In this document: positions 3,714-55,300 of the stretch, piece by piece
Layout: the number at the start of each line of letters is the position of its first letter
Position numbering within the stretch: the stretch's first letter is position 1
From: Druceiella hillmani
Taxonomy: Eukaryota > Arthropoda > Insecta > Lepidoptera > Hepialidae
Length of the DNA: 64,000 bases
NCBI GenBank assembly: GCA_039881145.1
Contig: JAYKKI010000066.1
Coordinates: forward strand, 10,369,001 to 10,433,000
Reading direction: 5' to 3'
Translations under genes and position numbers: made by a program
Notes under the pieces: model-generated
The model's input: only the letters and a program-made list of their open reading frames with translations
Database searches by the model: none
What the model was told of the DNA's origin: nothing

Positions 3714-3751
3714 ATATGTTTGGCGTTAATTTTGTAGAAAATCATTATTCA
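3714..3751 (-). mobile_element. terminal fragment of the hammerhead-bearing repeat family
   Basis: These 38 bp match the outer end of the hammerhead repeat family: TTTGGCGTTAATTTTGTAG, then a diverged AAATTCATTATTCA. The same end is seen at 7240-7273, 7841-7880 and, reverse-complemented, at 52712-52752. The family sequence stops here, so this is a truncated solo end with no ribozyme. Confidence 0.6.
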
Positions 3752-6800: not shown

Positions 6801-7238
6801 GCTTTCTTCAATTTTTCTAGTAGTTATAATCACCTGTATGGTTACCGAATGAAAAAAAATAGTCCCAACGTAGCTGAGGCACGTAAGAAGCAACTAAAAT
6901 GGATAACTAGCATTCGAGGGTATAGCCGGGCACACTGCCCCTGTAGAGGATATCTGGGGACTGACCCTCCAGATTAAGGGTTGAGCGCAGATCCAATCAC
7001 CCTGCCTCGAAAAACTTTCCCAATTCAGAAATCTGAAAAAGAAATCTCCGAACTTACACAACCCCGACGACTTGGCTGAAATTTAATAATCTAGAAAAAT
7101 GTAAGAAAATTTATTTTCTTCAGAATAATATTGACAATTGAAAAGTCGAAAACAATTTTAAAGGATTGATGGTCGGCATTCATTTTCATGATATTTGATG
7201 CCTGTTTATGTAATAAATTTAACAGTTTTCATTAATTT

Positions 7239-7345
7239 TGAATATATTTGGCGTTAATTTTGTAGAAATTCAAATCTAAGTCGTGGTAAAGAACTTAAAG
7301 AAAGTAGAAATAATACTACATCACGTAGTTTCATTTAATTGTGAG
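7239..7345 (+). mobile_element. hammerhead repeat copy, internally deleted
   Basis: It starts with the outer end in reverse orientation (GGCGTTAATTTTGTAGAAAT, about 7240-7273), then switches directly to the forward arm from the ribozyme cleavage region onward: GTCGTGGTAAAG, then AAAGAAAGTAGAAATAATAC, then ACTACATCACGTAGTTTC and the ATTTAATTGTGA edge. The ribozyme core and the whole interior are missing, leaving a minimal inverted element of about 107 bp. Confidence 0.65.
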
Positions 7346-7986
7346 TATTCGTTAATTATTTCATGGTTTTCAGTTAGTTAAACGTTAAATTTCTTTGAGA
7401 AAAAATAATGAGAGTGAAATTTTGAAAATACAGGATGAAGTTGGCAACGATGCAACACAAAAACAACACCATGAAGTGAATCACTATACATTTTTTTATC
7501 GATTTACGTGTCCGTAATTCTAGGCACATATTAGTATGAAAAAGTTTGATGAGAATATCGTCAAGCGATTATTTGATGACACAAAATTATACTGTGACTG
7601 CATTTGTTCGAATAATCGCACTAACATTCATATGTAAGTAAAAGAAAAAAATCATATTTATTCCATAAGGTTAATGTAAATACGTCATAGTTTATTTTTC
7701 AGCTGGCTTTTCGTTTTAAATCAATCATCTGTCAATCCGTTCCCAAACTATTGTGCAATAACATTATTGTCCTCTTGCTTACTAATTGAAAATTTACAGT
7801 GGTTTATATAATAAAATAAAAATTTATTAAAATATTAATTGAATATATTTGGCGTTAATTTTGTCAAAATTCATTATTCACAAATAAATTAAACTACGTG
7901 TAGTATTATTTCTAATAATAAAGTAGAAATAATACTACATCTATAACCTAGATGTAGTATTATTTCTACTTTATTTAAATCATTTA

Positions 7987-8024
7987 CCACGACCTAGGTT
8001 TCGTTGTATTACATCTTCAGGTGG
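7987..8024 (-). ncRNA. hammerhead ribozyme motif with shortened stem II
   Basis: Read on the minus strand: CCAC (stem I), CUGAAGA core, a stem-II segment of 11 nt instead of the 14 in the best copy, GAAA, CCUAGG, GUC and GUGG. The conserved core nucleotides are present, but the 3-nt loss makes stem II only weakly pairable, so activity is doubtful. Confidence 0.5.
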
Positions 8025-8052
8025 GCAATTGGCAAAGATTGGTAATTACCTA

Positions 8053-8090
8053 TTTGAAGGTGTTACAATACAACGAAACTTAGGTCGTGG
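8053..8090 (+). ncRNA. decayed hammerhead ribozyme motif
   Basis: The plus-strand partner of the motif at 7987-8024. The core CUGAAGA has become TTGAAGG, and stem III reads CTTAGG rather than palindromic CCTAGG. GAAA, GTC and GTGG persist. Loss of the invariant C3 and A9 predicts an inactive relic. Confidence 0.45.
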
Positions 8091-8720
8091 TAAATAATTT
8101 AAATAAAGTAGAAATTACAATACATAACTTAGTTTCGTTTAGTGGTGCAAAATAAATAAGTTTAATTATAAATATAAATCGAGAGATGAGTGGTATATTA
8201 TTTGATTTTTTTGCTGACTCTCCGTTTTTCTTTTATTATGATAAAGAAGTGTAACTTCTAACGCGCGTACATAAGTTCACGTGACTTTTTGGTACTTAAA
8301 ATCTCTTAGTCCTTTTTACAAATAAGCTAGGTGGAATAACCTTAAGCACTATTCGAGCAGCTTTATATGTGTAATAACCATACTAAGCCAAACAGAAATA
8401 AAAGGAGGAAAAATATAGATACATGTTATATATTCTTATTACACTGGTTGTACTATTAAATGTGTTTATAAATTATATCTGATTTATGTGTCTAAAATTA
8501 CTTTAGGTAGATTTGAGCTAAATTCGGAGTGGTAAAAATAAAAAGAAAAATAGTATATTTTCTTGTATTTTATTTATTAAAATAATATGATTACAGACTT
8601 AATAGAATTAATATTAAAAATTAATAACGTTACGTAACTTACACAATGCGAATCGACATTTAAAAGAAATAGTCATCATTTTAATGGGAGGGATATTCTT
8701 GATATATTGAGAGAAAATTA

Positions 8721-10403
8721 TCAATATTTGGCTTTTGTAAGGATTAACCGCAAATCTCCCCGTTTTGTGATACCCAATCTACTAATTTTTTTTTGTTAAT
8801 AGGTAACGACACTAAAACTTTTTTCGACAAGGTATGACGAGAAAAACGCTGTAAAAAGTTTTCTCGCAATTTTCCCCACCCCAGGATATTTGTCGCGTAT
8901 TTCTGCCTGCAGCCAAAATGTTTGATAGCCTGTTTTCAATTTCACCTACAGCTCCTCATTAGTGCTAAACTCGAGTACCTTCTCATGTAATATCACATTC
9001 ACCACTTCCGTTTCATCAAATGGATTTATGATCCATGGTGCTATTTCCATCGTCAGAATATCTTCAAATCTATTTTTGAAGTCATCGTGCAGGGCACTTA
9101 CATGTTGAACGTATGTCTGAATCAAGACGTTCTACTTGTGACAAGTTTGGAAACTGGGAAAATTTGCGCCGACTAATATTTTGCTCCATAAATTTAAATT
9201 TTCCAAAGAAACCTGGAAATAATTTTTTCATTCAATTTAGGCTATCCCCTTGTAACTGCAAGTTAATGTTATTAAATTTTTCAACTAAACTATCAAATGC
9301 ACGATGTTTGCTTTCAATTTGATCAGGTTTTCTTTTAAATTTGGATCTTTACTTTCCAGAAGCTTTAAAACTGATTAAAAAAGTAACTAAAATTTTGTTA
9401 AATCTGCACCTTTTGACAACTAGCGTAATTCAGTATTTAAGAGCAATCGTTAGAATCTTCATCATTTCCTACGCACTCTTGTGCAAATAAACGGGTATTC
9501 AACGCATCGCTTCTTATTTTGTTAACTGCTTTAATCACAAATTGAAACGATTAGTGCAATCTATGACTCAAATTTTTCGCTACCAGGTGTTGTCGGTGGA
9601 TGACATAATGAAATGTAGTTACTCCTGGTATAATTCTTTTAAGATGTTTTATAAACCCACGATATTGCCCGAAATGGCAGAAACTCTATCTGTTGGCACC
9701 AAAAAATTGTTTGGAAATGGAATCGATTTTTCCTTAAAAAAATAACTCAACACATTAAATAATAATTCGCCTTTAATTTCCTACTTTAAAGTTTTCACGA
9801 ATAACAGCTCTTCATTAATTTATTCGTTTATAACAAATCGATCATATGCCAATAATAATGCTTCATTATTAGGTAATGTTGACTCGTCCAGTCGTCCAGA
9901 TAATAATACAAAAAGCTTTCATCATCAATCATCAACATCAGAGCGCATTTCGTCAATACGTCTTTCTACAGTGTTGTTACCCAAAGGAATTATTTTGAAT
10001 ACGTCAAACAGAGGTTTGTGCAGAACAGTTTTTAAAACCTCTTCAACAGTGGGTAAACTGAACTGTTCTCCGATGGGGTGTGATTTTCCAGATTTCGCTA
10101 TAAGCAATGAGATATTGTAAGATGTCCGCAAGTCATCATTGGTACTTTGAGACATACTGTGCACGGTGGCTCTCTTTTCATATTTTTCCTTCAATATTTG
10201 AAAACATTTTAAATTTTTACCTATGTTATCAGGATGACACTTTCTTCGATGATCTTCGAGTTTTCATGGTTTCATAGATTCAGTGCTCAAAACTTGATTG
10301 CATAAAAGGCATATGAGGAATCGTTTTTCTGCCTTTGATGGAAGAAAACCAAATTTCAAATAATCAACACTATACTGTCGACATTTTTTTTAGATTCAGC
10401 CAT
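8721..10403 (-). pseudogene. hAT-family transposase relic, ZBED5/FAM200-like
   Basis: A nearly full-length but broken minus-strand reading starts at ATG 10403 (MAESKK, frameshift in an A run). In order: a BED zinc finger (YSVDYLKFGF, CLLC, DHRRKCHP giving C-x2-C and H-x4-H); YNISLLIAKSGKSHPIGEQF; IIPLGNNTVERRIDEM; LDEST; FNVLSYFF; HRQHLVAKNL; AVNKIRSDALNTRLFAQEC; ISRRKFSQFPNLS; FKNRFEDILTMEIAPWIINP; KTGYQTFWLQAEI; YPGVGKIARKL; SSYLVEKSFS; KRGDLRLILTKAKY then stop at 8721. The last block is the hAT C-terminal dimerisation region. Internal stops (for example MKP-stop-KL in the finger) and frameshifts make it non-functional. About 560 codons fits the family. ORFs on the plus strand here are shadows. 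Confidence 0.88.
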
Positions 10404-11468: not shown

Positions 11469-12682
11469 GTCTAAAGGATACTGCTATTAAATTGTAGCTT
11501 TTATAACATCATAAAATACTAATTAATATACTAATAGGTTCAATGCAATGATTTGACGACAGCTGTATAACAGATTTTGATCCAGTTCATTTGTAACGTC
11601 ACAGAAAATAAAGTATTGTTTAGACCTATTATCAAAACTTTGATAAAAAATTGATGCTGTCTGATAAAATACTTTTTAGCTATGTATATAAGATATTTAC
11701 TTTTGCTATAACTTTTTAGGATACTTTACAATAAAAGGAGTGCTTTATTTGAGTAATATATTTTCTTAAATATGATCATAGGTAACTGCGTACCGACGTT
11801 TCTCAATATTGATCAATATTTTTACGATGGTATGTGAATCATCTTGTCATCATTTCTTAATAATATCATCAAAGAAAGTGCAGAGGAAGATAAAACGACA
11901 TATTAACTATGTTTCTTAAATAAATAATTACTCTCTTTCATTGATTTATCTGCATTAAAATAATATTAATATTATCAATATATTTCGTATGGATGCTTGA
12001 AAAATTGTAACCAAATTGTATTAAAATTTCTTCGAATCATTGGTGTATTCGAAGGTAACTTCTTAATTTAAAGTAACCTTGGCACAAATACAGTTTAACA
12101 TCGATGAGATTTTGATAATTTTTTTTGATACCATATGGAACAATGTACATTAAAAACTATGATTTAAAAAAAATGTTACGGCTCGTGGTTATTTATTAGA
12201 AATGCATTGATAAGATAAATACAATAATTGTGTGATTTTGTTTGCGCAACAATATGTTTTAAGATTTTTTTTCATTTACGTAATTCAATTTTTCTTTTGT
12301 TACTAAATACTTATTACACAATTACAAGCATTATATTTTATAATTTATTAAGTATCTAGAATGAAAATATAATTAAATTATATGGCTAAAATATTCCCTG
12401 AGTTTTTATGTGTGTGTGTGTATGAGTAAAATGGAGATGATAACCCTTTAAATTTAATTTTCTCAGGAACACTTTGAGATACTTTTAATATAATTTGAAC
12501 ATGTATGAATATCCTATAAAATACACATTACACATATTTATTATATTTTATGTCAATCGCATATACAATTTACAGGAGTGTCGAATTAGTGGAACATAGT
12601 GTCGAATTAGTGGCTTATAAAATAAAATACAATTATGGATGTATAATTATACATATCTATATATATATGTATATATATATAT

Positions 12683-12729
<47 letters not shown>

Positions 12730-14378: not shown

Positions 14379-14472
<94 letters not shown>

Positions 14473-14487
14473 TATAAATATATATAT
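14379..14487. repeat. interrupted (TA)n microsatellite
   Basis: About 109 bp of TA with a few TGTA units. It generates a Tyr-Ile ORF. Confidence 0.95.
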
Positions 14488-16624: not shown

Positions 16625-17510
16625 GGCCATTTATTTCCAGTCTTTTTCTAATACATTGTCACCACTGAAATCTATGACACTTCTCCATTATTCATGCAAT
16701 GGGAAGATACCTTGATCGTCGAAATCATGTGTTTTGTCATCGAAAATATTCCGTATCTGTTTATTTAGATCTTGGTCATAGTAGAATCGTTTGCCCTTCA
16801 AACTGTTAAATAGTGATCTAAGCAAGCAATAATTGATAGGTAAAAGATCTGGAGAGCACACTGGGTGAGCGGATACAGTCCATCCTCTATAATTTTGCTG
16901 CATATTTTCAAAATATATGTGTCGAGTATTGTCAAAGTAATTGCCACTATTCGTTGTACATTCAGCAGTCGAATATCTCAATGGATGACGCTTTTAAAGT
17001 TTCACCAAAAAGCCATTATGATCGTCATTTTAAAGGGGTTAAATTAAGATGCAGAAGTGGTTGATAAAGTATACTCACTTATCGTTGACAGTAACTAGAT
17101 ATTCAAGCCATTCTTCATTAGATTGTGATATGAAGTGAGTCATACGGATGTTAACACGTAAATGACTCTGTATTTCATTCAACTTGTGTGATATCAACCA
17201 CTCCAGTGTCCAGGCCTCATCAATTTCTTGAAGGTACGATAAGACCAGGCTTTTTGAGCATATAAGTCGCTCTACTAAATACTGTGCCGCATGCCCCAAA
17301 TATTCTTCAATAACAGCCAAAATAGCGTCGATGTACAATGATCATGATTGCTCAGAGAATGGAGTATCTTCAAATTCTATAAGTCGTTGTCATGAAGTAA
17401 TGATAGGCAGTTACTCCTCTAATCTTTTTGCTTTCTCGTTGCATTTGTTGGTGTAGAAGTTTCCAAATAATAGATGTAAAATAGAACTTGCGGAGATTCA
17501 CAGAAAATAT
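16625..17510 (-). pseudogene. mariner-like transposase relic
   Basis: From high to low coordinates: a degraded N-terminus; the HTH block AVIEEYLGHAAQYLVERLIC followed by EIDEAWTLEWLISHKL (family GKxxKLGxWVPHEL); a first catalytic block LVTVNDKW (family IVTGDEKW); a gap where the middle is deleted (about 16985-17075); FDNTRHIYF (family HDNARPH); GWTVSAHPVCSPDLLPINYC (family LPHPPYSPDLAPSDYHL); LLRSLFNSLKGKRF; and a C-terminal WRSVIDFSGDN. The first and third catalytic acidic positions read Asn (VTVND, PINY), so the protein would be catalytically dead even without the stops. Confidence 0.85.
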
Positions 17511-22770: not shown

Positions 22771-28711
<5,941 letters not shown>

Positions 28712-39008: not shown

Positions 39009-39410
39009 GTTATAAATCATGTAATACCCCCTGTATGAGGTTTAGAGATAATTAAAGTAAGTTTTCAAAGTGAAGTCCACGGCCATGTATCCCTAGATTG
39101 AAGACCTAGGTTTGATATTATGTCGATTAAGCGATCACTCCAAATATTAAACATGAGGTAGAGAATATCCAGATTGCGCCGGCAGTGAAAGTATAATCGG
39201 TTAAGCTGCCCCGAGTTTTTGAAAACATGGTCAAATTTCCTAAGGTTAAAAATGTATGTAATGCCAAATTTTGAATCTTTTTAATTTATTTAAGCGATCC
39301 TCTTTATACTCCAGTTAGCGTACATGTTTTTAGTTGAGCATGGGCAGTAAAAGTTTTTGACAAAGTTGAATTTTGGTTTATTTTTAAAAAAACCTCTAAA
39401 ATTTATGTCC
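37947..39410. other. AT-rich stretch with a TA microsatellite
   Basis: Overlapping ORFs at 37873-38219 read through the Helitron end and lack motifs. The microsatellite at 38941-39003 is bracketed by TCATGTTATA on its left and TGTTATAAATCATG on its right. Confidence 0.5.
38941..39003. repeat. (TA)n microsatellite
   Basis: About 63 bp of TA with one TGTA unit. Confidence 0.95.
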
Positions 39411-39535
39411 AATAGCCCACTTGAAGATGTCGTGGTAAAGAACTTAAAGAAAGTAGAAACAGTGCTACATCACGTAGTTTCATTTAATTGTGAATAAAGA
39501 ATTTCTGCAAAATTAACGCCGAATACATTCAAAAT
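39411..39535 (+). mobile_element. hammerhead repeat copy with the ribozyme core deleted
   Basis: The 5' side keeps AGCCCACTTGAAGATG, the upstream half of the ribozyme, then jumps straight to TCGTGGTAAAGAACTTAAAG. This removes about 22 nt comprising stem II, GAAA and stem III. The forward arm and the full outer end (AAAATTAACGCCGAATACAT) follow. Only the forward arm is present, so this is a solo arm. Confidence 0.7.
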
Positions 39536-43189: not shown

Positions 43190-43905
43190 GCATTTTTTGT
43201 TTTTGTGTGCAATCCAATATTTTTATTTATCTTCAAAACGGTTGATCGATTTAGATACGGTTTTCTGTAAAATGTTTGCGATTCATTGGCAATTTTTCTT
43301 TGTTGCTATGCTTACTAGGGAGTACCGTAATAAACATTTATTGCAAATTAATGTTCCCATTTATGTTCTCAAACAGTTTGATCGATTTAGATACGGTGTT
43401 CTGCAACATATTTGGGACTAATTGGCGATGATTCTCACATCGGTTTTATGGTGTTAGCTCACCAGGAAGCACTGCGGCATTTTGTTGCAAACGAATTTTC
43501 CAATTTATCTTCTTAATTGTTTGACCAATGTAGACACGGTTTTCTGCAAAATATTTGGGACTACTAGCCAATAGTTCTCAGATAGGTATCATGGTGTTAG
43601 CTCACCAGGAGGCGCTGCAACATTTTGCTGCACACTTATGTTACCATTCATCTCCGAATTTATTTGACCGATTTAGACACAGTTTTCTGCAAAATATCCA
43701 AATTTAATCGACGACGATTCTTAGATATGCGTTGTGATGTAAGCTTACTAGGGTGTGATGCAAAATTTTATTGCAAACGAATGTTTCCATTTCTCTCCAA
43801 AACCGTTTGACCGATTTAGATATGGTTTCCGGAAAAATTTTGTTTGATTTGTGGCGAAGATTAGTCAAGTGTTAGGTCGTTAACTGTTCAGGGGGCGCTG
43901 CGAAA
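43190..43905. repeat. five-unit diverged tandem array, 143-bp period
   Basis: The anchor TTTGACCGATTTAGACACGG, with variants, occurs at about 43242, 43378, 43521, 43664 and 43807, so spacings are 136, 143, 143 and 143 bp. Each unit also contains TTTTCTGCAAAATATTTGGG, a TGTTAGCTCACCAGGAGGCG block and TTTTGTTGCAAACGAATGTT. Units differ by roughly 15-25 percent by eye. The array is more GC-rich than its surroundings. ORFs across it (43131-43421, 43625-43810) are by-products. It may be a short satellite or the internal tandem repeats of an unidentified transposon. Confidence 0.85.
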
Positions 43906-43939: not shown

Positions 43940-45042
43940 GACCTTTCTCCGGTTTCGTCAATGTTTGATCCACGTAACATGTTTCTCAAGCGCTCTAATT
44001 CTTTCAACGCTATGCTATTTTGTGAATTGTTGAAGAGTTTTTTTTATTTAAATCAGTTATTATCATGCCGTCTAAAGATCATACTCTACTAAGAGCCACA
44101 TAAGTTTACCCATGGCAAATGTTTTTAGACGCTTAGTTATGAAGATTTATAAGAAGAAAAATTTAAATTTTGGTTAAGCCCACGACGGATATAAACATTT
44201 TAAAAAACTCACGCGGATATAGCATTGCAATTGAAAAAATATTGAATAATTTTTTTTTAAACTCTCTCCATGCCAGATTGAAAAGCAGGCCCAACGGATT
44301 TTCTTGGGTTTGTAATTATATTGATAGGTTGTTCCTTTCTTTTAGTCGGGGGTATTCATAAAAAAATATTTAATTGTTATTCAATTACGAGGACTAAATC
44401 CATGGGGTTTTTTTAAAATTATTAATTTTGCATATTATACATAAATATTTTCGATAACCCTGTTGAGCTTGCAAGTTTTCTACAATAATATGGCATATTT
44501 GTCAATGGTAAATAAAACGAGACCCAATCTGCTCTTTGTTTCTGCTTGCAGCTTCAAAAAGTTCGACAGAAATAGCATTTAAAAAATAAATAAATTATGA
44601 AATATAAAAAAAAAAGTTCATAAAAAGAATGAACGATTACATATTTATAATTTTTACTTTTGTAGTACCTGGACCCAACCCTATGTGGACTTTTGCCAGT
44701 CCTATTAAGTATGAAGATTTCAATTATTCGCAAGTAGGGTATTAAAAAAAGTTAGTGTACTTAATAATTTTCCCGTACATCCATTAGGTGAAAAGTTGTA
44801 GGACAAGATTTTAATAATTAAATTGGGTTTCAACATATATTTTTAACATTTTTAATATTGTTTACCCTTTCTACTCCCACAATTTTTTAAACATGGATTT
44901 AAGAAATATTATTATATATATATAGGTGGAGGCAATAACTATTAACTGTGTTGGTGTTTTTAATATTCAATAAAAATAAACAAAAAAATTAACATAAAAT
45001 TATAATAAGAAGAAAAATATTTTAATCTTGTACATATGTATA

Positions 45043-45119
<77 letters not shown>

Positions 45120-47030
45120 TAAATATAATCAATAAGACATGAAAATTTTTACCACGCCCCAAAATTAACTTGGCTTCTTGGAAGTGTTTAAATCAGAGTT
45201 GCACATCCTTGAAAATTCAGTAAGAGAAAACCGTTGAATGAAGTTAATTATACGGATAAAGTTTTTTTCCAGTTGATTTAAAAGTTTAATTATTGCTACC
45301 CCTAAAGCGAGTTGTGTGCATCGTTATGTTTAAATTCTTTGGAAAGCCCTTTGCATGCAAATGGTATTTAAAATTTCTTCGTAAAGTTGTCCTCTTGAAG
45401 TTCACAAACTAATTTCTGTTGTGAGTTTACTATTGCAGATATCATTCAATCGGATTACAAGTCTGTTCGACAATCTTTGATCTCCCTATCAACTTGGTAA
45501 TTTCAAACACTCTTGTTCAATTAGGAAACAAAATTTTCCTTTTTACCGCAAAATTTTCCCATTTTTGTTTTAACGTGCGAATGCTCACTTTATTTCCCCA
45601 AGTGACTTAAAAGTTACTAAAGATTATGTGAACTATTGCATCTAACTATATTCTCCCAATCACAGTGTACCCGTGTGTATTAAACAATTCTACGAAAGCA
45701 ACCGTCAACACTTTCATTTCCAGCGGCAAGGAGGAGGAATACATTCCGATGGTCGGGGAAGTCCAGATCAGAATAATTAAGACATCCCATCTCGGTCATA
45801 CATCGTATTATGTTTGTTTAATTCAAGTATCTTTATCTTAGTAACGTATTTCAAGCATGTATAAATGATAGGAACATAAGAAAACAGTTCGAAATTAAAC
45901 GAAACGCTTAACAAATTATTGTAAATAATAAAACCTGTATGATAAAAATATGTGCACTGAGCGACAATAAAAATAACCGATATCTAAAGGCGGCTCCCAC
46001 TTTTTTGAACTTAGACGTTGGCTAATCGGTTAATGGCAAAAGAGCAAATCGAACGCATACAAATTTGTTTGAAGTCACCGCATCGTACCGCGTGGTCAGC
46101 CACAATTTTCAAGTGCCAGTTTATGCAATATTACGTCTTTGGCAATGAACCTGTCAACGCCGAACTTTGATTAGAAATTTCAACAAAATTATTTTAAATA
46201 AAATGGAATAATTTTAAGAAATAGATATTTAAAGGATCTTACTTTGGAAGTGGTCAAATACAAAATAATAAAAGTCTAAACTGGACATTTAAATTTTAAT
46301 ATTTTTTTAATCTCAATAAATCTGTAATTTCTTCACTTGGTTTTCTGTCACATAACAGGAAAATGTATAAGATCTTCTCAGCATATTTAAATTTATCTTC
46401 ATATGTTCAGTATTGTAATTAATTTATTTCCTTCCTGAAGCATTAAACTAATTTCGATGCTCAGTGAATCGGAAATAAACGTTACAAAGCTCGTTTTTTC
46501 CATTTCATTTCACTGATCTTTAATTGGGTGTTGAAGTTTGTGTTAAGGACGTTTTAAGTTATTCCAAGGAAAATATTATTGTTCGCTTTACATATTCGTA
46601 TAAATTTGGTTTTAATGAGCAAACGTGGGTTTCCTATTAAGACGTTTGTAAAGGATGTAATCAGAGCAATTGCAAATACAAAACGTATGTGTAATCGCAG
46701 GAAATTATCTACCGCTAATTGGGTGAGCAGTATATAATTTGCCCGACATTGACCAATTCATAATTAGAACAAACAGATTTCATTTTGGTTTTTTTAAAAT
46801 TTATTTTATGTTCGTAAGGTAACGTTAATAAAATATACGTGAGTTAAAAAGTAACGTTACGAAGATTGTTTCAATTTTGAGCCACTTTCAATTGTTCACT
46901 AAATATTTTAGGTTTTTAAATATAATAAAATACCTAGCGAAATCTGCAAATTTATCTACATATATTTTTTAAATATATTAAAATAACATAATTGCCTGTT
47001 TTAAATAGGTATAATATAAACACGCACACA
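43940..47030. other. AT-rich stretch without supported gene
   Basis: It contains the microsatellite at 45035-45118. Slightly GC-richer DNA at 45650-45790 and 45990-46150 shows no readable domain. Confidence 0.5.
45035..45118. repeat. (TA)n microsatellite
   Basis: About 80 bp of TA, preceded by TATGTATATATTTATA. Confidence 0.95.
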
Positions 47031-47519
<489 letters not shown>

Positions 47520-49475
47520 AAAAAATACAGAAATGCAGAAAAGTCATTTTCATTAAGTCAAAAATTCATGTGATGTGATGAACATAAGAAAAAACCACAT
47601 ATTAAAAAATCGTATAAGTCGTTTTACTTTCGCTTGAGATTTAAAATTTACATTCTTGTTTGGATTCAGTTACGTGTTTGGGAATTGCAAGTTGCTTGCA
47701 TTATACTATCATTTGTTTCATATTTATACATTTCTACGCATCGAAAATATTTCAACTATATATTCACGGTAATAAAGAGGGGAACATTATTAAAGATGTA
47801 ATATTTACATGGAGAGGACCAAATAAGAGGAGGAAATTATGTTGACAAACCATCTGTGAGTTCCGATCAGTAACGAGGTAAACAGGAAAATATTTACATC
47901 TGATGGAGTAGCGGGAGTAGTCATATGTAGCAGCGGTATAATGGCAGAGAAAATAAATTCAGCTCGATGATGTCTGTACAGGGGTAATCTTCTCTTTAAT
48001 GAGAGAAGTTCACTTTTAAATGTCAGTATTATGATTATTTGATTTGAAATGATTAGTGAGAATACAAAACATGAAACATGTTTCAATTATCAACTCGATT
48101 TTTGCAAATCACTTGTCTAAAGATTATTGGTTATCAAATTTTCAAAGAAAAATGGTCTCGCATGTCGAGATTTCCGTACGAGTTATAAATTATATGTAAA
48201 CTATAACGTTGTTATATTTTTCCTTAAAAATTTGTGTAGACTTCTAAAAACTAAGTTTTTTTCAGAACTGTGTATTATGAAATTGTGGAAATTCTTTTTA
48301 AATATAATTTTCGGCATATTTCCGAAAAAATACTAACTAAAATCCAAAAATATTGTTGAGACATTTTTAAAGGACAGAAGAGACAAAAGATAAGTGTTTC
48401 GACTACATTAACGTAAATATGTTAAAAAAAGTATTCTCGAGACACATATCTCTTTCAAATTATTGTTACATTATATGTGGAATTTAAAAAAATGGAGTAC
48501 TTAATTTTCCCGAAATTTGAGTGTAAATATTTTCGGTTATTAGCTATTGAGATGTGCGCCCGTCAATAGGCCAAATTTAAAATTTCTATGGAAAGCTCCT
48601 ATATAGCAGCTACTCCTAAATAGCTGTGTATGGTTCTAAGTAAAACGACTATGACACACGAATAGACGGACACTTAAGTGATCTTATAAGGATTCTATTT
48701 TCCCTTTCGATACAAACTTTAAAAGTAAAATTGGGTGTATTATTATTATCGCGGTACATGCAGACTATTTTTTAATTTTCATCATAATCCTTCCTCATAC
48801 TCGTAATATTCCTGTCACGGGAATCAAATGAAAGTAATTTGAAATTAGGTTTGAACTAAATATATGAAAACTCCGAAAAATTTTACTGTTATTTTTAATG
48901 TCATTCCTTTTTTTTATTTGATAATATACTAATAAGAATTACAGGTTGATATATTTGAGTTAAGAGTTTGTTGATAGCATTGTGGATTTGCCAAGATGCC
49001 ATCTATGTGAGTTTATGGAAACGAAATTTCACTCTTAACACAATGAATAAGGACATGTGACTCATAGGATAAATGTACATCTTATTTTTTTTTGGTTTCT
49101 AGTATTTTCTTTTTGATAGACGAATCTTAAATTTTGAACTTTTTATTTTATTTTAGCGTTTGCCACACTGGGAAAAAATTATGAGAGATTTGAGATGTAA
49201 GACTATATGAGTAATTGTCTAAGATGTTTATTTCACATAAAAATAAAAGATAGTAAAGTTAATAATAATGGCGAATGTGCATAACGAAAAGCATTTTCAT
49301 CAATAACAGGAGTTAAAAAACAATATTTACGCAATATGGCGTAATACAATACGGCATAATACAGCGCGTATTCTTTATTGTGCGACTCCTTTCAATTGAT
49401 AAAAATAAAAATAATTGAAATTCACACTTAAACAATTTAATCGCATCGATATAATTTTTTCACCATTGAAAATGC
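47520..49475. other. AT-rich stretch, no gene seen
   Basis: ORFs at 47805-48086 (minus, 93 codons) and 48127-48336 (plus) have hydrophobic or Lys/Phe-rich AT-driven composition and no motif. Confidence 0.5.
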
Positions 49476-49653
49476 ACAATTAATGAAACTACGTGATGTA
49501 ATATTATTTCTACTTTCTTTAAGTTCTTTACCACCAAAGATATCTTTGCTAATAGAACACCTGAAGATGTTATAATACAATGAAACCTAGGTCGTAGTAA
49601 AGAATTTAAAGAAAGTAGAAATAATACTACATTGCGTAAATTCATTTAATTGT
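49476..49653 (+). mobile_element. hammerhead repeat copy, left ribozyme and interior deleted
   Basis: The left arm (49476-49534, reverse orientation) ends at TTTACCAC, where the minus-strand ribozyme should begin. It joins directly to CAAAGATATCTTTG (49535-49548), a perfect palindrome made from the inner flanks of the two arms, followed by the plus-strand ribozyme and the forward arm to ATTTAATTGTGG. It is therefore a compact 178-bp inverted element retaining one ribozyme motif. Confidence 0.75.
49557..49597 (+). ncRNA. hammerhead ribozyme motif, stems weakened
   Basis: CUGAAGA (49561-49567), GAAA (49582-49585), CCUAGG, GUC (49591-49593). The core is intact and stem III palindromic. Stem II (GUUAU/ACAAU) has one mismatch and a wobble, and stem I is degraded (ACAC against GUAG). 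Probably weak or inactive. Confidence 0.5.
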
Positions 49654-50438
49654 GGACATTTATTTTCTATTATGACACAAAATTCCATATGTATATTTTG
49701 AAAACGAAAAGGGAATGAAACTATTTTAATAACATTTCATTAATTATAGAATGAGGTTAGTAAAATATGATAACAATAATTAATACACTCTTATAAATGT
49801 TAACTTTTTCTTTAATGTATGTAAGCTCATGAATTTATTGTATAACTTCCTTCATCATGAGAATGGTTTTCGGCTTTGTAAAATTATTTACATGTAAAAG
49901 ACGAGTCGGATTAAGTACTTTCTTCAATATGTATATAATAAAAAGTTTATAATAATAATGAAAGTTTTGCCAGAAAGTTTCATCTCATGAAAAGGGATTG
50001 AATTTTGGAAAATTTATTTACGCAAAAGGTACTGAGATATGAATATGTAACTTATGGGCCTGGCTACGAATTTAATAGCCACTTTTAAATCTACTGAAGT
50101 GAGTACAAATTAACTTAATCGAAAATTAAGTGTAACAAAACCGAGTGAGTTGAGACGATTTATAAAATATTTTATATATCTTTAATTATTTCTGTATTGA
50201 ACTAAAATTTAATAATCAAATTTTTATAACCATACTTGCATGAACTCTAAATTAGATGGACTGACATTTTAATGACGAAAATTAAAAAACAATTTTTACT
50301 ATTTAAACAATTAATATGCCAACTGTGAGTAATTATTATTACACGTGGAACAAGTAAGAGAAAGGATACAAGCCTCAATATGTCCAAAAGTAAGTGAATA
50401 ACTTGATAGTTAACTTGTATCACTAAATTAAGTTACCT

Positions 50439-52060: not shown

Positions 52061-52324
52061 GATAAGCCATACAATCAGCAAGTTTATCTGTTGTTACTTT
52101 ATTGTGTATGGGATCATAAACTCTACAGCCATTTACAATTGTATATACTCTAAAAGGCTGGCTGACTGACTGAAATATGCTTAATACTTATAAAATTTAA
52201 AATATTCTTAATATTCCTTTCAAATTTAGTAACAAAAATAACGACACACAAAAAGAAAAAAAGTGAACACAATTAAATGAAACTACGTGATGTAGTATTA
52301 TTTCTACTATCTTTAATTTCTTTA

Positions 52325-52365
52325 CCACGACCTAGGTTTCGCTGTATTAAAACATCTTCAGGTGG
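52325..52365 (-). ncRNA. hammerhead ribozyme motif, left arm
   Basis: Minus strand: CCAC (stem I), CUGAAGA (RNA positions from 52361 down to 52355), stem II, GAAA, CCUAGG, GUC (52331-52329), GUGG. Two of the three arm differences fall in stem II, giving one mismatch and one wobble, so this strand's ribozyme should be less stable than the right-arm one. Predicted cleavage lies between 52329 and 52328. Confidence 0.65.
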
Positions 52366-52614
52366 GATATTAGCAAAGATTAACTCTTAGGAACAACCAA
52401 CAGCATTTATATGTTTCAAACACAATAGCGGAAGACTGCTTTGTGCGGATTTTTTCCATTGTTTATGTTAGTGAGTTTATTGCAGGGGCGCAGACTAGGT
52501 TTTATCCTAGTCTGTAATAAAACCTAGTCTGCGCCCCTCCTGCTAGTTCCGCTATTGTGTTTGAAACATATAAATGCTGTTGGTTATTCCTAAGAGTTAA
52601 TCTTTGCTAATATC

Positions 52615-52655
52615 CCACCTGAAGATGTTGTAATACAACGAAACCTAGGTCGTGG
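52615..52655 (+). ncRNA. hammerhead ribozyme motif, right arm (best match)
   Basis: CCAC (52615-52618) pairs with GUGG (52652-52655) as stem I. CUGAAGA (52619-52625) is the CUGANGA core. GUUGU/ACAAC (52627-52631 with 52635-52639) is stem II with loop AAU. GAAA is at 52640-52643, CC/GG (52644-52645 with 52648-52649) is stem III, and GUC ends at 52651, after which cleavage is predicted. CUUU upstream (52602-52605) can pair with AAAG (52657-52660) to extend stem I beyond an internal loop, as in type I hammerheads. An unpaired U (52626) sits between core and stem II, and stem III has only a 2-nt loop, so dimeric action is more plausible than monomeric. Confidence 0.78.
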
Positions 52656-52759
52656 TAAAGAAATTAAAGATAGTAGAAATAATACTACATCACGTAGTTT
52701 CATTTAATTGTAAATAATGAATTTCTACAAAATTAACGTCAAATATATTCAATATTAAA

Positions 52760-53431
52760 AAAAGTGAAGTTAAAAGTCTTTATTAATAATCAATATTAAT
52801 ATTTTATTTCCTTTTTTACAAAATAATAATTATTTTCTTAGTCTGATATCTTATCACAAAATAAAACCACTCAATTCTTACAATGCGGGAGAAGCAGAAA
52901 ACAAAAGTAGTTTCGTATATTTGTTCAAATTGATATCTCTAGTGTTAATAATATAAGTAAACTTGTTTATTGACCAAAGTTACTAATTATTTAAAAATAA
53001 CCGGTACTTCAAAGTAAAATTCTAGAAACAAGGGACGGTATAATCAAAAAAATTCTCTAAAATGGACAAGATTAAATTTCCGTGAATATGTTAACCGATT
53101 CTTTAAATATATGCGATTATAAGCTCTAAAGAATGATCATGTAAGAACGACTAAGAAGGTTTTCTTTGACGTCGAAAAACTTCGTTTACATGTCAACAAA
53201 TTTACATACGTTTTTTAGATATAAATAAAGTGCACCAATTTCTATTTTCTAGCATTGGCACAAACAATGAAAACGTAATAACATCTGGACCCGAAAAAAC
53301 ACTCGACTAAAATAACAGTTTACAGGGACTTGCTGCACATAAGTATAAGTTGCATCTGTTCTGTGAAACTGATAAAGTAATGTCAAATAAATTGTCATTA
53401 TCTGAAATATATCTCAACCACAATAGTGTTA

Positions 53432-55180: not shown

Positions 55181-55300
55181 CACAATTAAATGAAACTACG
55201 TGATATAGTATTATTACTACTTCCTCTAAGTTCTTTACTACGACCTAGGTTTCGTTGTATTACAACATCTTCAGGCTCTATTAGCAAAAATATAAATCAG
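55181..55300 (-). mobile_element. hammerhead repeat copy, solo arm
   Basis: One arm in reverse orientation from ACAATTAAATGAAACTACG to ATTAGCAAAAAT, with the ribozyme motif on the minus strand. The edge CACAATTAAA is directly duplicated (55171-55190). No partner arm follows. Confidence 0.72.
55238..55278 (-). ncRNA. hammerhead ribozyme motif, solo copy
   Basis: Minus strand carries CUGAAGA (55274 down to 55268), the full GUUGU/ACAAC stem II, GAAA, CCUAGG and GUC (55244-55242): core and stems II and III are intact. Stem I is damaged (GAGC against GUAG), which should reduce cis cleavage. Confidence 0.6.

Follow-up and report, generated by a model that had tools for sequence, protein, structure and literature searches.

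Head-to-head hammerhead-bearing repeats in Druceiella hillmani: a probable remnant of a Penelope-like retroelement

An inverted repeat and its dispersed copies

The window analyzed here is a stretch of 64,000 nucleotides (64 kb) from the hepialid moth Druceiella hillmani, with a base composition of about 72% A+T. It carries an inverted repeat whose two arms (52269-52433 and 52547-52711) are 165 nt each, are 98% complementary and enclose a spacer of 113 nt. The arms are identical at 162 of 165 positions, with mismatches at 52586, 52630 and 52638, and the latter two fall within stem II of a hammerhead motif. An initial annotation had described arms of 164 bp with 3 differences; it was correct as to the differences, and the length is corrected here. 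It had also limited the locus to 443 bp (52269..52711), but the inserted unit is longer and runs from 52268 to about 52756. This unit is bracketed by a direct repeat, AAAAAAAGTGAA, at 52256-52267 and 52757-52768, which is identical at 12/12 positions; the repeat was spotted by eye ahead of scoring, and an equal score was reached in 0 of 4000 random position pairs. The AT-rich flanks of the target are of little weight, because the whole window is AT-rich. The locus is composed as follows.

52256..52267: left candidate target-site duplication (TSD), AAAAAAAGTGAA, abutting the left 3' end of the element
52268..52433, minus strand: left arm, a pLTR-like copy whose 3' end, CATTTAATTGTG, faces left and is without tail
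52322..52369, minus strand: left-arm hammerhead motif, minimal and of type I (descriptor match, and sub-gathering match to Rfam Hammerhead_1)
52434..52483: stretch of about 50 nt adjoining the left arm, replaced by short unrelated sequence beside the right arm in the alignment
52484..52538: perfect 22-bp junction palindrome, with palindrome arms 52484-52505 and 52517-52538
52547..52711, plus strand: right arm, a pLTR-like copy whose 3' end faces right
52611..52658, plus strand: right-arm hammerhead motif, minimal and of type I, with its cut predicted at 52651/52652 (descriptor match, and sub-gathering match to Rfam Hammerhead_1)
52712..52752, plus strand: 3' tail of about 41 nt, on the right arm only
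52757..52768: right candidate TSD, AAAAAAAGTGAA, separated from the tail end by 4 nt (TATT)

Matches to miRNA precursors over 52471-52553 were all below gathering (best mir-3569, 30.6 bits, E 0.00088, gathering 50), and we read them as reflecting the palindrome hairpin alone.

What had been presented as one isolated locus belongs to a repeat family with at least ten copies in the window. A profile search of the 64 kb returned ten dispersed copies of the repeat arm at E<=1.3e-13, with scores of 46.6-152 bits as compared to 10.3 for the best of 20 shuffles; the profile was built from those same ten copies, and the matches from pairwise self-comparison are independent of it. Three weaker profile matches (8.4-13.0 bits) were located at 7918-7950 (+), 7239-7334 (-) and 3714-3751 (-), two of them scoring no higher than the shuffle null. 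Pairwise matches at 7232-7271 (90% over 40 nt, E 2e-9) and 3714-3749 (92% over 36 nt, E 2e-8) do beat the null. The homology shared between loci mostly sets in near ATCTTTGC (52600) and runs as far as CATTTAATTGTG, covering about 112 nt. In 3 of the 10 copies (the right arm at 52547-52711, 39409-39532 and 7840-7915) it is continued by a tail of 40-odd nt, and the tail at 52712-52752 is common to 39492-39532 (+) and 7838-7879 (-), and in part to 7238-7271 (-) and 3714-3751 (-), which are tail-only pieces. The fragment at 3714-3751 starts about where a tail-less 3' end would be. Exact DNA patterns of the repeat had no matches in prokaryotic and viral contig collections, as expected for an animal repeat. 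Single copies and further head-to-head loci are listed below.

55181..55293, minus strand: single copy, hammerhead core complete, stem I disrupted by the loss of 2 nt, no Rfam hammerhead match
39409..39532, plus strand: single tailed copy in which a deletion has removed the hammerhead core
49475..49654: second head-to-head pair, left arm 49475-49534 (minus), right arm 49542-49654 (plus), junction CAAAGAT/ATCTTTG
7238..7343: third head-to-head pair, left part 7238-7271 (minus) consisting of tail only, right arm 7272-7343 (plus) without tail, 14-bp candidate TSD with 2 mismatches
7838..8151: fourth, compound locus, segments in the order minus, plus, minus, plus, tail on the leftmost arm only

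In all four head-to-head loci (52268-52756, 49475-49654, 7238-7343 and 7838-8151) the outermost 3' ends point outward. The tail is present on the right only at 52268-52756, on the left only at 7238-7343 and 7838-8151, and on neither side at 49475-49654; it is thus carried by exactly one arm in three of the four pairs, by none in one and by both in none. Flanking direct repeats were recognized at two of the four. The pair at 7238-7343 is directly flanked at both ends by AGTTTTCATTAATT / AGTATTCGTTAATT, which agree at 12/14 positions, a score attained by a fraction of 0.0005 of 4000 random pairs, this repeat also having been picked by eye beforehand. No TSD was found at 49475-49654, where a 14-nt palindrome, CAAAGATATCTTTG, occupies the junction (49535-49548), and no convincing one at 7838-8151.

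The arms at 52268-52756 are 98% alike, while their likeness to other loci is lower (99/112 for the 55-kb copy, 100/112 for the 49-kb copy), which, judged from the sequences, fits a single recent event. Arm identity in two other pairs is only 53/61 (49 kb) and 72/87 (8 kb), and therefore these pairs would be older, or their arms would derive from different templates.

The hammerhead motif and its predicted folding

The initial annotation placed a hammerhead core in both arms of the inverted repeat, head to head, and this is confirmed by a descriptor that matches on both strands. Both arms read CUGAAGA-N14-GAAA-CCUAGGUC; stem I comprises 4 bp and stem III, closed by a CUAG loop, only 2 bp, and the core (CUGANGA / GAAA / UH) and all three stems are present. 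An unpaired U sits between what we take, in hammerhead numbering, to be A9 and stem II. The descriptor (stem I of at least 4 bp, CUGANGA, stem II of at least 3 with one bulge allowed, GAA, stem III of at least 2, UH) is permissive and was composed post hoc, with the motif already known; it matched the window at just two places, 52619..52651 (+) and 52361..52329 (-), as compared to a mean of 0.01 matches per first-order Markov sequence, with any match in 2 of 200. The cut predicted at the outset, 52651/52652, appears to be supported by this reading of the sequence.

It had also been proposed that the Rfam hammerhead type I model be run on both strands, and this yielded alignments on each, below threshold. 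The Rfam scan of the whole window gave nothing at gathering, and in a scan of a 1201-nt piece no hammerhead was reported at E<=10. With 71-nt pieces and laxer filters, Hammerhead_1 aligned end to end with the right arm (16.6 bits, E 0.067) and with the left arm (16.3 bits, E 0.087), both under the RF00163 gathering score of 34 bits. The copy at 7970-8036 matched Hammerhead_HH9 at 17.9 bits (E 0.015, gathering 52), and two of the five core copies tested gave no Rfam hammerhead match, a sixth, 8039-8151, having been left out. Compensatory changes between copies, to which the initial annotation had looked as evidence, did not appear: 0 of 11 stem pairs are altered on both sides among six copies, and 87.3% of stem cells are paired across these copies versus 86.9% in shuffles. 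In most other copies in the window the hammerhead is broken. The motif itself is thus real, but it matches the model weakly.

An ATG at 52625-52627 opens stem II, and the predicted cut after 52651 lies 27 nt from its A and 24 nt from its G. The frame that starts there reaches a stop at codon 3, so that motif and geometry of a hammerhead at an ORF start are present together with a sub-gathering Rfam score and an ATG frame that is not open. Relative to the right arm, stem II of the left arm is weakened by two differences. A stop-free frame of 38 codons, read by eye at 52591-52707, also spans the hammerhead, differs from the ATG frame and is probably due to chance.

Fold predictions were made for the isolated arm and for the complete unit. 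The minimum-energy fold of the isolated arm is not the hammerhead, and forcing the hammerhead costs 8.4 and 9.4 kcal/mol. For the 489-nt unit, the hairpin is predicted at -315.2 kcal/mol versus -244.6 with the ribozyme fold on the plus strand, and at -327.1 versus -252.6 on the minus strand, an advantage of about 70 kcal/mol in equilibrium estimates that leave out tertiary contacts and kinetics. The competition between a long hairpin and the ribozyme, foreseen in the initial annotation, is thus predicted to be strong. Because the hairpin is so strongly favoured over the ribozyme fold in these models, cis-cleavage by the ribozyme within the inverted unit is doubtful. The stem III strand ACCUAGGU is self-complementary and permits a dimer; for a 51-nt piece, the dimeric hammerhead was calculated at -25.0 kcal/mol versus 2 x -9.9 for the monomers, the best dimer being at -28.2. 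Any self-cleavage would be dimeric, by way of this palindromic stem III. We take the hammerhead to be left over from the parental RNA; buried in the predicted hairpin of the inverted copy, it probably serves no function in its own right.

Comparison with Penelope-like elements

We consider it likely that 52268-52756 is a non-coding insertion of the terminal (pLTR) sequence of a Penelope-like retroelement (PLE), and most likely a small leftover in which the 3'-terminal, hammerhead-bearing segment occurs twice, head to head. The unit displays inverted, outward-facing 3' ends, a tail that is optional and borne by one arm, a short TSD and a junction palindrome, and its alternative 3' ends are about 41 nt apart. 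This pLTR-like anatomy supports the link to PLEs drawn in the initial annotation.

Membership of the PLEs rests on anatomy, because no reverse transcriptase (RT) or endonuclease ORF was found. Indeed, none of the 47 stop-to-stop ORFs of at least 75 aa in the window showed an RT or GIY-YIG domain in Pfam searches (E limits 1e-3, 0.1 and 0.01). The sole Pfam match, FANCI_S2 at 47808-48086 (-), scored 15.9 bits (E 0.016), well under the cut-off of 37.8, and was taken as chance. Decayed fragments can escape Pfam, since a hAT-like ORF of the window also gave no match. As an ORF with telomerase-like RT and GIY-YIG, by which an autonomous PLE is recognized, was not found in the window, we do not file the unit as an autonomous PLE.

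The published systems offer close parallels. In the work on Penelope elements (PMC3846280), an adjacent inverted pLTR is described, with an optional 31-bp tail on one of the two, TSDs of 8-10 bp that some copies lack, junction palindromes of 18 and 38 bp, and head-to-head as the commonest arrangement; solo pLTRs around unrelated sequence are reported there as well, and inverted pLTRs with 3' extensions are also described in PMC8969392. The Adineta vaga Penelope elements treated in PMC3846280, among them Pen2a_Av and Pen3a_Av, resemble our unit in their inverted pLTRs, one-arm tail, palindrome and short TSD, but mostly enclose an RT-EN ORF, whereas the unit in the window consists of pLTR-like ends only. 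The word hammerhead does not occur in the main text of PMC3846280 on the Adineta vaga elements, whereas our unit has the motif.

Poseidon PAc of Anolis carolinensis (PMC11167929) is comparable in other respects. Its hammerhead straddles the ORF start with the ATG at stem II, and an ATG likewise lies at stem II of the motif in the window; its cut is 26 bp downstream, as compared to 24-27 nt from the ATG in our unit; its 3' end may fall at either of two places separated by 30-40 nt, which resemble the tail states observed here; and its target is AT-rich, like that of our unit, both target strands being used by PAc. The PAc ORF is intact, whereas the ATG frame in the window closes at codon 3 and no protein was found. 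Minimal type I hammerheads are carried by PLE pLTRs, with their role given as unknown, according to PMC7761336, and may act as dimers (PMC7761336 and PMC6466107). Those cited in these sources as cleaving as dimers are of type I with a vestigial stem III, like our motif, a likeness judged by description only, and the palindromic stem III strand in the window is predicted to allow a dimer as they do. Metazoan non-LTR retrozymes (PMC7229834) are, like our unit, short, dispersed and non-coding repeats with a type I hammerhead; they are described as direct tandems with canonical hammerheads, whereas our unit has a minimal hammerhead and forms an inverted pair.

A non-coding foldback with a ribozyme in both arms had been thought possibly undescribed. 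This view is not borne out, as head-to-head inverted pLTRs are known (PMC3846280) and hammerheads sit in PLE pLTRs (PMC7761336); such a foldback follows from known PLE structure, the locus itself being no more than an ordinary remnant of a repeat. Among the titles and abstract openings listed from open-licence literature, none was seen to present a solo inverted pair of hammerheads in its own right. The locus bears on how PLEs insert, why their ends are frequently inverted and what their hammerhead does, questions raised in PMC3846280, PMC11167929 and PMC7761336.

Mode of insertion and rival explanations

Four other accounts of the repeat or its motif were weighed against a PLE origin. One candidate is a metazoan non-LTR retrozyme, in which the hammerhead of a small non-autonomous element yields a circular RNA that is reinserted by PLE enzymes. 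The unit is indeed short, non-coding and AT-rich, with a type I hammerhead and dispersed copies, and retrozymes may depend on PLEs (PMC7229834 and PMC7761336). However, retrozymes are described as direct tandem repeats of ~150-450 bp with canonical type I hammerheads, minimal ones being likened to PLEs (PMC7229834), whereas in the window no tandem array overlaps any repeat copy, no co-oriented direct tandem copies were found, stem III has 2 bp and the copies form inverted pairs with PLE-type tails; we regard a retrozyme as improbable. Long inverted repeats with a flanking direct duplication would also be expected of a foldback or MITE-type DNA transposon bearing a hammerhead-like motif in its terminal inverted repeats by chance, but the outer ends are unequal owing to the one-sided tail, copies in single orientation exist (39409-39532 and 55181-55293), and copies are truncated at varied 5' positions with flanking repeats that vary in length and quality, which leaves such a transposon very unlikely. 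As to the motif, a chance look-alike of a hammerhead would be compatible with a score under Rfam gathering, the lack of covariation and an arm whose minimum-energy fold is different; little credence can be given to this in view of the descriptor null of 0.01 per window, the end-to-end model alignments on three copies, and a placement relative to ATG, 3' end and tail that matches a tested PLE hammerhead. That the foldback is itself a functional unit, its long hairpin serving as a source of dsRNA or small RNA under the regulation of two ribozymes, would agree with the hairpin of -315 kcal/mol predicted for the 489-nt plus strand, but broken hammerheads in most other window copies and two stem II differences that weaken rather than preserve the left ribozyme make it extremely unlikely.

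Under a PLE origin, the insertion was probably made by target-primed reverse transcription. Proceeding from what is seen in the sequence, namely the copies, their orientation, the tail on one arm, the flanking direct repeat, the palindrome and the hammerhead motif, we propose that the endonuclease of the element would make a staggered cut of both strands, about 12 nt apart, and that reverse transcription on the element RNA would be primed from both cut ends. It would start at one of two internal sites, so that the tail would be left out of one arm and included in the other; the cDNAs would then meet at their 5' ends, leaving the junction palindrome, and fill-in would produce the 12-bp duplication. 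We infer a supply of endonuclease and RT in trans by an autonomous relative and, likewise, any role of the ribozyme.

Priming at both cut ends is the step we favour, with some reserve. The tail asymmetry argues for separate priming of each arm, a point that is possibly new. Snap-back self-priming of a single cDNA or of an antisense template, proposed in PMC3846280, competes with this step and not with the PLE origin. It has the standing of a published interpretation (PMC3846280) and agrees with the palindromes at two junctions, 52484-52538 and 49535-49548, but it should, by our reasoning, give like 3' ends on both arms, whereas one-arm tails occur in three of four pairs, four loci being few; the 50-nt stretch beside the arms at 52268-52756 differs as well. 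We hold snap-back to be possible but doubtful. Short solo pairs, with their comparable arms, flanking repeats and readable tails, are well suited to this question, and genome-wide counts of their ends could separate snap-back from two-strand priming.

Going back to priming at both ends, it may be asked what served as template. At the 49-kb pair, the left arm 49475-49534 begins, by pairwise alignment (BLAST), at the base after the predicted cut, a point that is likewise possibly new. The seed alignment, whose boundary was set by hand, ends at 49534 as well, but the profile match extends weakly past it to 49571. In this one case synthesis may have jumped templates from an RNA cut by the ribozyme, or an internal deletion may happen to end there. 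Because of this arm start, we advance the reading that the inverted pairs record independent priming on both cut strands and that at least some templates were hammerhead-cut RNAs, which, taken as a whole, we rate as speculative and unlikely. If true, the hammerhead of PLEs would help to set the end of the cDNA in vivo, for which no need of the hammerhead was found in vitro (PMC11167929). The deletion in the copy at 39409-39532 could mark a further end at the cut site, but its junction is one base off and ambiguous, and it was not counted.

Other repeats and coding remnants were noted in the window. At 9928-10263 (-) lies a stop-free fragment of 112 aa of a hAT/ZBED5-like transposase, whose first eight named relatives are from insects, at 62-70% identity; its top match is at 72%, and spiders, Hydra and vertebrates come lower, a pattern that would point to an arthropod host. 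Two adjacent minus-strand ORFs at 16688-17341, in which we presume, by eye, a resemblance to mariner transposase, gave no Pfam match. Long (TA)n arrays extend over 12648-12725, 14379-14487, 25435-25550, 45034-45117 and 47030-47135, and a tandem array at 43333-43842 is built of about 3 copies of a 143-bp unit with 72-78% matches.
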